From Burkholderiales bacterium (GTDB lineage: Bacteria; Pseudomonadota; Gammaproteobacteria; Burkholderiales; Burkholderiaceae_E), in NCBI GenBank assembly GCA_027487815.1, contig JAIYCW010000040.1:1-64000 (forward strand): a DNA stretch of 64,000 nt, read 5' to 3'. The notes beneath the pieces were generated by a model. That model had not been told where the DNA came from. It searched no databases and was given only the letters and a program-made list of their open reading frames with translations. This document shows, piece after piece, positions 12,188 to 50,993 of the stretch. The first letter of the stretch is position 1. The number at the start of each line of letters is the position of its first letter. The position numbers and the translations under genes were made by a program.

Positions 12188-13542
12188 CAGCGCATCCCCG
12201 GCAGCATGCCCTTCATACCGCGCATCATTTTGGCGAGGCCGCCTTTTTGCATCTTTTTGAACATGCCCTGCATTTGTTCAAATTGGCTCAGCAGGCGATT
12301 CACTTCCTGCACCTGCACTCCGGAGCCCACGGCGATGCGTTTTTTCCGGGTGGCCTTGATGAGTTCAGGTTTGCTGCGCTCATGCGGTGTCATGGAATGG
12401 ATGATGCCCACCATGCGCTTCATATCGCGCTCGGCTTTGCCCATGTCACTTTTTGCGGCTGCGGCCTGAAGCTGCGCCGGGAGTTTATCCATCATGGAGG
12501 CAATGCCGCCCATCTTGTTCATCTGCTGAAGCTGAGCAGCAAAATCATTGAGGTCAAACTTCGCGCCGCCCTTGAGCTTTTGCGCAAGTTCCTGCGCGGA
12601 GGCTACATCAACCTTTTTTTGCGCCTCCTCGAACAGCGAGAGGATGTCGCCCATGCCGAGGATGCGCTGCGCCATGCGGTCGGGGAAAAAAGGCTCCAGC
12701 CCGTCGAGTTTTTCGCCCACGCCGGTGAATTTGATTGGCTTGCCGGTGATAGCCTTGACCGACAGCGCTGCACCGCCCCGTGAGTCGCCGTCCAGTTTTG
12801 TGAGAACGATGCCGGTCAGGGGCAAAGTTTCATTGAAGGCTTTGGCGGTGTTGACCGCATCCTGGCCTTGCATCGCATCCACCACAAACAAGGTTTCGAT
12901 GGGCTTGAGCGCGCTGTGCAAGCTCTGGATTTCCTGCATGAGCGCTCTGTCGATGGCCAGTCGGCCCGCAGTGTCGACCAGCAACACATCGTGATAGTGG
13001 GTTTTGGCCCACTGCACAGCGGCTTGCGCAATCTCGACCGGCTTTTGATCAGGTGTTGAGGCGAAAAAATCCGCCCCGGCTTGTTCAGTCACGGCGCGCA
13101 ACTGCTCGATTGCCGCCGGGCGATACACGTCGCACGATACGGTGAGCACTTTCTTTTTCTTGGTTTCACGCAACCACTTGGCCAACTTGCCGGTGGTGGT
13201 GGTTTTACCTGCGCCCTGCAAACCTGCCATCAGGATGATTGCCGGGGGCTGGGTTGCAAAGCTCAGCTCGGCTTGTGCGCCGCCCATCAATTCCGTCAGG
13301 CTGCGGTTCACCACGCCTACCAGCGCTTGGCCCGGTGTCAGGCTGCCGATCACCTCCTGGCCGAGCGCCTGCTCCTTGATTTTGGCGATCAGATCACGCA
13401 CCACCGGCAGCGCAACATCAGCCTCCAGCAGGGCGATACGGATCTCGCGCAGCATCTCCTGGGTGTTGGCTTCAGTCAGGCGTGCCTCGCCTCGCATCGT
13501 CTTGACGACGCGGGACATTCTGGCGGAGAGGTTTTCGAGCAT
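12187..13542 (-). CDS. ffh: Signal recognition particle protein Ffh
   Basis: Ffh binds signal sequences of nascent membrane proteins together with 4.5S RNA and delivers them to FtsY. The 451-residue protein has the N domain, then the GTPase with GLQGAGKTTTTGKLA (P-loop), VDTAGRLAID (G3) and TKLDGDSRGGAAL (G4), and a methionine-rich M domain (MNKMGGIASMMDKLP, QMQGMFKKMQKGGLAKMMRGM). Length and order match the family. Only 23 bases separate it from the divergent CcsA-like gene, so at least one of the two promoters must lie inside the other's coding sequence. Confidence 0.98.
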   Translation of the reverse strand: MLENLSARMSRVVKTMRGEARLTEANTQEMLREIRIALLEADVALPVVRDLIAKIKEQALGQEVIGSLTPGQALVGVVNRSLTELMGGAQAELSFATQPPAIILMAGLQGAGKTTTTGKLAKWLRETKKKKVLTVSCDVYRPAAIEQLRAVTEQAGADFFASTPDQKPVEIAQAAVQWAKTHYHDVLLVDTAGRLAIDRALMQEIQSLHSALKPIETLFVVDAMQGQDAVNTAKAFNETLPLTGIVLTKLDGDSRGGAALSVKAITGKPIKFTGVGEKLDGLEPFFPDRMAQRILGMGDILSLFEEAQKKVDVASAQELAQKLKGGAKFDLNDFAAQLQQMNKMGGIASMMDKLPAQLQAAAAKSDMGKAERDMKRMVGIIHSMTPHERSKPELIKATRKKRIAVGSGVQVQEVNRLLSQFEQMQGMFKKMQKGGLAKMMRGMKGMLPGMR

Positions 13543-47169: not shown

Positions 47170-47559
47170 ATGTCTGCTGGTTCCCAACGTCCCGTCCTCC
47201 CATCCTCGCGTATCGCCCCGACCGTTCACGAAGTGATGGCCAAACACTTCGCCTCAACAATCGCTGAAGTAGAGCAGGCGATTGCTCGATCTCCGATAGT
47301 TGTCGTGGGCATGGCGCAAAACCCGTATCCGCGTAAAGCGCGCAAGTTGCTGGACTCGGCCGGGGTTAGATACGAGTACCTCGAATACGGCAGCTATTTT
47401 TCCGGTTGGCGCAAACGTAATGCCATCAAGATGTGGGCCGGTTGGCCGACCATGCCTTTGGTGTTTGTGAAAGGTGTGTTGATGGGTGGTGCGGATGATT
47501 TGCAGCGCGTGATCGCAAGCGGTGAGTTTCAGAAGCAGCTATCTAGCGGCGCTTCTTAG
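47170..47559 (+). CDS. Glutaredoxin-fold protein lacking all cysteines
   Basis: The protein is 129 residues. After an ~35-residue leader, it has the glutaredoxin pattern: strand VVVGMAQ, active-site position NPYPRKARKLLDSAG (a glutaredoxin would read CPYC or CGFS here), YEYLEYG, the cis-proline GWPTMPLVFVKG and the glutathione-binding-like GGADDLQRVIASGE. Both catalytic Cys are replaced (Asn and Pro), and there is no Cys anywhere in the protein. It cannot do thiol-disulfide chemistry. It may bind glutathione or a partner, or be a structural relative. No Shine-Dalgarno sequence is obvious. Its 3' end overlaps a decayed fahA copy on the other strand. Confidence 0.82.
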   Translation: MSAGSQRPVLPSSRIAPTVHEVMAKHFASTIAEVEQAIARSPIVVVGMAQNPYPRKARKLLDSAGVRYEYLEYGSYFSGWRKRNAIKMWAGWPTMPLVFVKGVLMGGADDLQRVIASGEFQKQLSSGAS

Positions 47560-47758
47560 CCACTGCGCTAGCTGCAGTTGTAAAGTTATTCGGTCTAGCC
47601 CGCGCCGAACCAGTGTGCTCACACCAGGACTTGAGGATGAGAGTGTCACTACCTCAAACTCAACGCTACGGCTTGCCTGCCCAGCATTTCGACCCGCCTA
47701 TCGAGCAAAACAGGCCGCGAAGCTGCCACGTTGCCGCGCCCACCCGGAGCTTGAATAG
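47543..47758 (-). pseudogene. Decayed 3' fragment of a fumarylacetoacetase gene
   Basis: On the minus strand, 47600-47647 encodes DTLILKSWCEHTGSAR, which aligns without gaps to [16 protein letters not shown] in the intact fahA (11 of 16 identical; about three quarters of bases identical). Further upstream, 47722-47758 resembles the fahA stretch for [11 protein letters not shown] but only with several small indels. A TGA precedes the matching part, and the frame ends at a TAG at 47543-47545 after a divergent tail. It has no start codon and is not functional as read. It looks like a duplicated or horizontally acquired fahA 3' end, about 0.7 kb from the intact gene on the same strand. Confidence 0.7.
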
Positions 47759-47844
47759 CATGGGAGGGTGATTACACCATCTCGACCAGGCAAGGCAATG
47801 CTGAAAGTTTTCGCGCAGTGTGTTTCGAGTGAGCTACCGATGTC

Positions 47845-48276
47845 ATGGGTCGTTGGCGCATGAATCCGCTAGCCGTTTTGGTGGTGATTTGTGTGGCTGT
47901 GGGTGTGTATAAACATTGGCCCACCGGCAAGTCAGCAGTTGTGGCGCTAGCTGCAGAAGAAACCCCCGGCAATTTCGTCAAGATGCCTGCAGTGCAGGGT
48001 ATGACAGCGTCGCAGGTGTTTGTGATTTCCGATCCTCATTGCCCGAGGCCATCGGGCGAGCGGGCTCGTCAGCTGGTTCAGGCGCTCAAAAGCAAAGGTA
48101 TCGATGTGGTTCACACTGGACGGCTTGAAATGGTGCCACCAGCACCAGGCAGCGTGGATCTTGACGAAGTGAATTCCACCCTGAGAGGCGAGGTTCCGAT
48201 TGTGTTTGTGAACGGCCGCGCCAAGGCGAACCCAACCCTGCACGAAGTTCTTGCTCAGTACAAACCGGCGGGGTAG
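47845..48276 (+). CDS. Membrane-anchored redoxin-like protein with a single cysteine
   Basis: The protein is 143 residues. The N-terminal span MNPLAVLVVICVAVGVYKHW anchors it, with the rest periplasmic. The domain resembles a thioredoxin/glutaredoxin fold: strand VFVISDPHCPRPSGERARQLVQALKSKG, then VPIVFVNGRAKANPTLHEVLAQY, with the cis-Pro position before IVFVNG. Only one Cys (in HCPRP) remains, with Pro where the second would be. It could act by a monothiol route or bind a ligand. ATG at 47845 or 47860 is possible. It converges with fahA, 57 bases away. I do not recognise a named family. Confidence 0.7.
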   Translation: MGRWRMNPLAVLVVICVAVGVYKHWPTGKSAVVALAAEETPGNFVKMPAVQGMTASQVFVISDPHCPRPSGERARQLVQALKSKGIDVVHTGRLEMVPPAPGSVDLDEVNSTLRGEVPIVFVNGRAKANPTLHEVLAQYKPAG

Positions 48277-48333
48277 TTTCAGGCTGGTGGTACTGATCAG
48301 GCATTGCTGACTAGGCCTGACTGATCATGCCGA

Positions 48334-49656
48334 CTATTGCGCTGCTAGCACCGTCCCCACGCACTCCCCAAATCCGATTCGCGCGGCACCAGGTTTTTCG
48401 CACCAGGCTTTGAGAATGATGGTGTCGCCATCTTCAAGGAAGGTGCGGATTTCGCCGCCTGTGAGGGCCACTGGTTTCTTGCCGCCCACGCTCAGCTCAA
48501 TAAGCGCTGCAGCCTCGGTTTCGGTGGGGCCACTTTGGGTGCCACTGCCGATCAGATCACCGGCTTGCAGATTGCATCCGCCCACGGTGTGATGGGTGAG
48601 CATTTGCGCCACTGTCCAGTATGAGTGGGAGAAGTTGGAGTGCGAAAGTCGATGCGCGCTTTGTACGGCTTGTTTCATCTGCGCGGTGTGGATCCATGAT
48701 TCGATCATGACATCGAAGCCACCCGCATCGCGATTGGCTTGCGCTTCAAGATAGGCGAGCGGTTGGGGATGGTGCGCAGGTCGGGTCCAGGCGGCGCGAA
48801 ATGGGGCGAGGGCTTCCATCGTGACGATCCAGGGCGAAATTGTGGTGGCGAAGTTTTTGCCGAGGAAGGGCCCCAGGGGTTGATACTCCCAGGCCTGAAT
48901 ATCGCGCGCCGACCAGTCATTGAGCAGACACAAACCGAACACATGCTCTTCCGCCTGGGCGAGTTCCACAGGCTGGCAGAGCGCATTGCCCTTGCCGACC
49001 CAGATGCCGATTTCGAGTTCGTAATCCATGCGTTTGCATGGACCAAATACCGGCTGGGTGGCTCCAGGGGGCATCGACTGGCCCTGCGGCCTGCGAAAGC
49101 TCTGGCCACTTACATCAATCGACGAGACGCGGCCGTGATAGCCAATCGGCATCCACTGAAAATTCGGGGTAAGCGGGTTGTCCGGGCGAAACAGTTTGCC
49201 GATGTTGCTCGCATGATGGATCGAGGTGTACATATCGGTGTAATCGCCAATGCGAGCAGGCACCCGCATTTGTGCATCGCTTTGCGGCACCAGGCACAGC
49301 GCTAACTTTGGGGCATGTGGGCTGCCGGTGCGCAGAATCTCGGAAAGCGCGGCCCGCAATGCAGACCAAGCCTCGCGCCCCATGCTCATGAAATCATTCA
49401 GCTCATTGTGGGCTGCCGCTTTGGCTGCAGCCAGCACCATCGGTTCAAACCCATCAAAGGCCCCGCTATAGATGGCAGCTTGCAAATCAAGAATTTGCTG
49501 CCCGATCGCTACACCGCCACGAAACTGACTATCGGCCTCGGTGCGCGAGCGAAACACCCCATGCGGCAGATTCTGGATGGTGAAATCGGGCGAGTCGTTG
49601 GCCGAGGTTACCCAACTGGTGAGGCTGGGGTCGTGGGTGGGGTTTAATGGAATCAT
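48334..49656 (-). CDS. fahA: Fumarylacetoacetase FahA
   Basis: FahA hydrolyses fumarylacetoacetate to fumarate and acetoacetate, the last step of tyrosine/homogentisate breakdown. The ~440-residue protein has the N-terminal SH3-like part and the catalytic domain with [16 protein letters not shown] (metal Asp and His), [14 protein letters not shown] (metal Glu pair), [19 protein letters not shown] (metal Asp) and [16 protein letters not shown]. The C-terminus [24 protein letters not shown] is complete. The start at 49656 overlaps the hmgA stop (ATGA), so the two are coupled. Maleylacetoacetate isomerase is not adjacent; the GST-like gene at 1.1 kb is too far away to assign to this step. Confidence 0.95.
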
Positions 49657-50993
49657 GATGTGGTGAAGTGCTTTTTCAGGCCTTGCCAGCAATCCGCATA
49701 GTGGGCTTGCAAGGTGGGCGTGGTGAGCGCCCAAGGGGTGAGTCGGATCGGCAGGCGGGTTTCAAACATGAACGCCATCGTATCGCGAATATGGTGAGCC
49801 ACCGAAGTATCGGCCGCGCTGGCTTTGCTAAAGGTTTCGGCATCCGGGCCATGGCCCGTCATGCAATTGTGCAGCGAGGCGCCGCCCGGAAGAAAGCCTT
49901 CGGCCTTGGCATCATAGGCGCCATGCACCAGGCCCATGAATTCACTGGCGATGTTGCGATGAAACCAGGGCGGGCGAAATGTGTCTTGCATTGCCAGAAT
50001 TCGCGGCGGAAAGATCACAAAATCAATCGCATCCACCCCCGGGGTGTCGGTGATGGATTGCAGGACCAGAAAGATCGAAGGATCGGGATGGTCAAAGCTG
50101 ATCGAGCCAATGGTGTTGAAGCGGCGCAAGTCGTATTTATAGGGCACATGGTTGCCATGCCAGGCCACTACATCAAGCGGACTATGGCCGATGGGCGCAT
50201 CCCATAGCGCGCCCAGAAACTTCGCGGTGAGGGTGAACTCGCCCTCGCGGTCGTCATATGCGGCCACCGGGGTGAGGAAGTCGCGCGGGTTGGCCAGCCC
50301 ATTGGAGCCGATCGGGCCAAGGTCAGGCAAGCGCAAGGGGCTGCCAAAGTTTTCGCAGACATAGCCCCGGAAGAATTCGAGGGCCCCACCTTCATGCTGC
50401 AACTCCGGGCAATGCACTTGAAAGCGTACCCCGCGTGGAATCACGACGATCTCTTGCGGCTCAATGCGCAACACGCCCAGCTCGGTGCGGATCAGCAGCG
50501 TGCCTTGTTGTGGCACGATCAGCAGCTCGCCATCGGCGTTATAAAAAAAGCGCTCGGTCATGGAGCGATTGGCGCTATACACATGGATCGCGCAGCCATG
50601 CTGGTCTTGCGCCGAGCCGTTGCCGCCCATGGTGATCAAGCCCTGCACAAAGTCGGTGGGCTGGGTCGGTGCAGGCGTTGGATTCCAGCGAATTTGGCTG
50701 GGTGGAGTGGCCACGGCATCAAAGCTTGCGGCTATCAAGGGCGAAGCTGTCGGTTTGAAGGCACCGTGTACTGCTGCTGGGCGAATGCGATATACCCAGG
50801 TGCGGCGATTATCCGAGCGCGGCGCGGTAAAGGCAGTGCCGGAAAGCTGCTCGGCATACAAGCCATAGGCTACCCGCTGCGGGCTGTTGCGCCCGACAGG
50901 CAAGGCTCCGGGCAGGGCTTCGCTTGCAAATTCATTGCCAAAGCCGCTCATCATCATGGGCTCGAGCAGGGCGGCAGGGGTGGGTGCGTTCAT
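49653..50993 (-). CDS. hmgA: Homogentisate 1,2-dioxygenase HmgA
   Basis: HmgA opens the ring of homogentisate with O2 and Fe2+ to give maleylacetoacetate. The 446-residue protein begins near [18 protein letters not shown] and ends with the iron ligands His and Glu in [16 protein letters not shown] and His in [14 protein letters not shown], matching the known His/Glu/His triad. The ribosome site CGGGAGAC lies upstream of the ATG. It forms the hmgA-fahA unit divergent from an IclR regulator; no hpd or hppD gene is in the window, so homogentisate must come from elsewhere or from another ring hydroxylase. Confidence 0.96.

Follow-up and report, generated by a model that had tools for sequence, protein, structure and literature searches.

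A survey that searched the intergenic regions of 64 prokaryote genomes in translation obtained approximately 7,000 candidate pseudogenes and attributes them to disabled native duplications, to the decay of single-copy genes and to failed horizontal transfers (PMC522871). The locus described here lies in a 64,000-nucleotide stretch of a Burkholderiales bacterium contig (JAIYCW010000040.1; assembly GCA_027487815.1), hereafter the window, and holds a much smaller piece of a known gene beside an intact fumarylacetoacetase gene (fahA), which serves in the breakdown of tyrosine. We consider it probable that this piece is a nonfunctional, displaced copy of about 54 bases from the 3' end of a fah coding sequence. 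For its 48-base core, sequence comparison best supports derivation from a fah 3' end.

The intact fahA gene is located on the minus strand at positions 48334 to 49656 (Pfam FAA_hydrolase, 2.3e-35; FAA_hydrolase_N, 3.2e-22). Its longest frame extends to a TTG codon at 49734 and comprises 466 codons, but the ATG at 49656 is the likelier start. Initiation at this ATG would overlap the stop of the preceding gene (49653 to 49656), as in a translationally coupled operon. We take that preceding gene (49653 to 50993) to encode homogentisate dioxygenase (hmgA). The fragment (47600 to 47654, minus strand) has the same orientation as fahA, lies 0.7 kb past the fahA stop and falls within a 285-base gap (47560 to 47844) that separates a glutaredoxin-like gene from a gene encoding a 143-amino-acid protein.

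Both genes bordering the gap are on the plus strand, and the preliminary description had called both redoxin-like. The assignment holds for the first (47170 to 47559; 129 amino acids), which matches Pfam Glutaredoxin at 1.9e-06. For the second (47845 to 48276), the Pfam search returned no family, and its thioredoxin-like character is suggested by structure prediction. The AlphaFold2 model, built from 4 sequences and of moderate confidence (pLDDT of 71), has a low-confidence N-terminal helix at residues 8 to 20 and a thioredoxin-like fold from approximately residue 42. The top Foldseek matches of the model were arsenate reductase, NrdH and thioredoxin-like proteins at E values of 0.003 and weaker, and no match was obtained at an E value of ≤0.001. 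A 13-base exact repeat, GCGCTAGCTGCAG, occurs both in the gap (47565 to 47577) and in the gene for the 143-amino-acid protein (47944 to 47956). By itself this repeat is not significant (E value of 0.42 locally), and the idea that the gap is a mosaic of pieces of its neighbors was rejected on that ground. Likewise, a plasmid origin of the junction was rejected, as positions 47560 to 48333 gave no match.

On the minus strand, positions 47600 to 47647 read DTLILKSWCEHTGSAR, and 11 of the 16 residues are identical to residues 437 to 452 of the 466-codon fahA frame. The corresponding DNA match pairs 47601 to 47654 with fahA positions 48380 to 48433 in an ungapped alignment with 39 identities in 54 bases. 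The in-frame, 48-base match to the fahA C terminus that was reported initially was therefore reproduced. The match contains no stop and lies in a frame of 36 open codons.

Several lines of statistical evidence bear on whether this likeness reflects homology. When the fragment was compared with the rest of the window by blastn, fahA gave 38.9 bits (E value of 3.4e-5) and the second-best place 26.6 bits; the best of 60 shuffled sequences reached 28.1 bits against the neighborhood from 45 to 51 kb. In a broader tblastn comparison, genes were aligned with noncoding gaps within 2 kb of them. The window, together with 80 fahA loci and 10 further loci (91 sources in total), gave 906 genes, 466 gaps and 1,774 pairs. 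The fragment scored 29.6 bits and ranked 7th among these real pairs. The six pairs that outscored it were judged by eye to be true homologies, and the best score below it, excluding repeats of pairs already listed, was 23.9 bits. None of 26,610 pairs of genes and dinucleotide-shuffled neighboring gaps reached the score of the fragment (maximum, 27.3 bits). Extrapolation of the shuffle tail gives an estimate of about 1e-5 per pair, or about 1e-3 for the 94 pairs of the window.

This composition-adjusted tblastn scoring took the place of plain BLOSUM62 scoring, with which 43 of the 1,774 pairs, including the fragment, scored at least 66; as judged, those pairs mix real homologues with biased composition. 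Nonlocal pairs, 340 of 115,673 of which scored at least 29.6 bits, were rejected as a null, since the short pairs among them (60 listed of 109) were mostly true homologues from shared operons, and dinucleotide shuffles were used instead. Other comparisons placed the fragment closer to background. In 1,000 mononucleotide shuffles the best score was 33, compared with 34 for the fragment, and in a plain blastn ranking the fragment was 9th among the 466 gaps, with GC-rich noise among the entries above it.

Profile searches gave results that depended on the length of the profile. With fah profiles built from 100 sequences, the fragment was detected in the window at E values of 0.00034 (40 columns, with limits picked after the match was known), 0.011 (78 columns) and 0.23 (full length). 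The profiles were also run against 80 other fahA loci (926,302 bases in all), with matches of <30 bits being listed. For the 40-column profile, the fragment scored 17.1 bits, while places outside the fahA genes in these loci from other genomes reached at most 9.8 bits. For the 78-column profile, a likely FAH-family gene in locus L072 (13.8 bits) exceeded the fragment (13.0 bits), and for the full-length profile both L072 (12.6 bits) and a place in locus L140 (7.8 bits) did so (fragment, 7.2 bits). A whole-genome profile search at an E value of ≤10 listed the intact fahA alone and not the fragment. Overall, the sequence evidence makes homology of the fragment to fah likely but not certain.

Similarity to fahA ends on both sides of the fragment. 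The flanks were examined in the minus-strand sense: downstream over 40 bases (47560 to 47599) and upstream over 197 bases (tested as 47648 to 47844, the flank proper being 47655 to 47844). Frameshift-tolerant alignment to the fah profile was no better than for shuffled sequences at any of four frameshift penalties. For the upstream local score, 0.25, 0.49, 0.42 and 0.45 of 150 shuffles, respectively, were at or above the observed value, and for the downstream score the fraction ranged from 0.27 to 0.73. In alignments anchored on the core, the upstream fractions lay between 0.22 and 1.0, and the downstream fraction was 1.0. The power of this test was assessed by random mutation of the corresponding fahA stretch, with 40 simulations per setting compared with the 95% null. 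At 27% substitution, 90 to 100% of simulated flanks were detected when indels numbered 0 to 0.04 per base, and 65% when they reached 0.08; detection fell to 28 to 85% at 35% substitution and to 12 to 33% at 45%. As the flanks are silent although the test would reveal decay at the level of the core, an evenly decayed gene is improbable in the absence of later deletion or replacement of the flanks. These results support a short displaced fah-derived fragment over a second gene that can still be traced through indel scrambling. The preliminary description had proposed the latter, a relic of a second fah gene with indel-scrambled flanks. Of that proposal, origin from the 3' end of a fah gene remains the best-supported reading. 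The scrambled flanks and the larger duplicate are not supported: no significant fahA match was found outside the 48 bases, the outcome that the preliminary description had itself named as refuting, and the test could have revealed flanks decayed as far as the core.

The source of the fragment was assessed by DNA comparison with 99 fah sequences. The fahA of the same genome was the closest (38 of 54 bases), followed by that of Caballeronia (L129; 36 of 54), with a median of 28 of 54. Over the same stretch, this fahA matches other fah genes at 40 of 54 bases at best, so that the fragment is as distant from it as are the closest fah genes from other genera. With divergence of this genus-like extent, the fragment would be either old or derived from another genus. 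The 48-base core differs from fahA at 13 positions, with 5, 0 and 8 differences at codon positions 1, 2 and 3, respectively. Neutral decay would spare all second positions with a probability of about 0.005 if all 13 changes occurred in the fragment and of 0.04 if five third-position changes are those of fahA. This sparing is rarely expected of a neutral scrap and argues against one. It suggests either past coding constraint before loss or ascertainment through likeness at the protein level.

The fragment cannot encode FahA, as it retains only 16 codons and its frame offers no start codon ahead of the match. Pfam searches identified no family at an E value of ≤1, including PF01557, for the 36-residue frame, and none above the cutoff for six translated stretches of the gap (one weak match, E value of 0.17). 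Rfam searches of the whole window found no family at gathering scores, and the RNA fold of the fragment was no better than that of shuffled sequences (z score of 0.73). Between 47050 and 48450, three terminator-like sites were detected, compared with 1.6 expected, none of them in the core, and no promoter-like sites were found. A small gene was therefore discarded for want of a start and a family, and an RNA or terminator on account of the ordinary fold and the lack of an Rfam family or of a terminator-like site in the core. The fragment would thus be debris without function.

A fahA match at an E value of <1e-100 was found in 20 of 61 genomes, including the genome studied here, which contains one full-length fahA, one weak partial match (E value of 9.2e-4) and no second full-length copy. 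Of the 60 other genomes, 7 contained homologues of the glutaredoxin-like gene with 47 to 58% identity, and its relatives in other genera have identities of 48 to 57%. The gene for the 143-amino-acid protein is rare: a search of 150 genomes found it in 4, and a search of 74 family members found it in 2, with the present genome included in both counts. Neither redoxin gene was found within fahA flanks of up to 6 kb at 80 loci (tblastn, E value of ≤1e-5), and no fahA was found at 10 loci around redoxin gene homologues (7 for the glutaredoxin-like gene and 3 for the 143-amino-acid protein gene). The neighborhood of the fragment thus recurred in none of the 90 loci examined from other genomes, and no congeneric genome appeared among those listed in the genome searches.

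Three other explanations were weighed against a short displaced copy. A complete second fumarylacetoacetase gene, whether duplicate or foreign, may have decayed in place with the core as its best-kept stretch. The coding-like distribution of differences and the genus-like divergence from fahA are both consistent with such a gene, as is a frame that remains open to a TAG at 47543 to 47545, four codons beyond the expected end of FahA. However, neither flank retains fah similarity, and according to the simulations this would require deletion of the flanks or a much higher overall divergence; the genome also lacks a second full-length fahA. We therefore consider a decayed second gene rather unlikely. 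Chance likeness of a noncoding stretch to the neighboring gene is likewise unlikely in our judgment, although the match spans a mere 16 codons with nothing in the flanks and was the best reported after much sequence had been scanned. Spared second positions would be expected of a stretch picked for its protein likeness, and the modest 78-column E value in the window and the absence of the fragment from the genome-wide list point the same way. Against chance stand the shuffled pairs, none of which scored as high, the low estimate for the pairs of the window and the E value at the DNA level.

Retention as a functional element (a gene for a small peptide, a small RNA or a terminator between convergent genes) appears highly improbable. 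The in-frame match and its 36 open codons without a stop would suit a small peptide, but there is no start before the match, and the fold, Rfam, promoter and terminator analyses were all negative for the fragment.

A nonfunctional displaced copy would be a scrap remaining where a rearrangement brought two convergent gene ends together. The copy may have arrived by short duplication or by a template switch, or an insertion may have displaced the end of a gene. The order of a plus-strand redoxin gene followed by a minus-strand fah 3' end occurs twice in a row (47170 to 47654, then 47845 to 48433), and it is conceivable, if improbable, that this order is the trace of an event involving a whole block. 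A segment carrying the rare redoxin-like gene for the 143-amino-acid protein might have inserted at the 3' end of fahA, or close to it, and displaced that end; alternatively, the fragment could be half of an ancient tandem duplication. A recent tandem duplication of a redoxin gene together with the fah end was rejected, as BLASTP did not align the two redoxin-like proteins in corresponding places. Profile alignment of the two was weak (E value of 0.001; probability of 21.5%). Given this weak mutual alignment and the relatives that the glutaredoxin-like gene has of its own, the two redoxin genes would have split long before the 72% DNA match arose. If a block event did occur, the 3' end of fahA would mark a place where this lineage once underwent insertion or duplication.

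A tandem partial gene duplicate was also observed at another of the loci (L092, positions 12454 to 13329; Colwellia chukchiensis), with 83% DNA identity over 183 bases and the second copy ending at the edge of the locus. The peptide of the duplicated gene presumably resembles phage tail collar proteins.

The fragment at the fahA locus is of little consequence in itself. It shows how short a recognizable gene scrap can be, and calling a 48-base match a whole second gene is an overreach. As an ordinary pseudogene scrap, it would belong to a kind of debris that is common in bacterial genomes. Compared with fumarylacetoacetase (FahA; FAA_hydrolase, PF01557), it shares 16 to 18 codons near the C terminus, but the remainder of the domain is missing, as is the 11-residue tail that directly follows in fahA. 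Like the pseudogenes of the survey cited above (PMC522871), it lies between genes, is a disabled part of a known gene and was recognized through translated comparison; unlike them, it is much shorter, at 16 codons, and carries no visible disablement inside the match.
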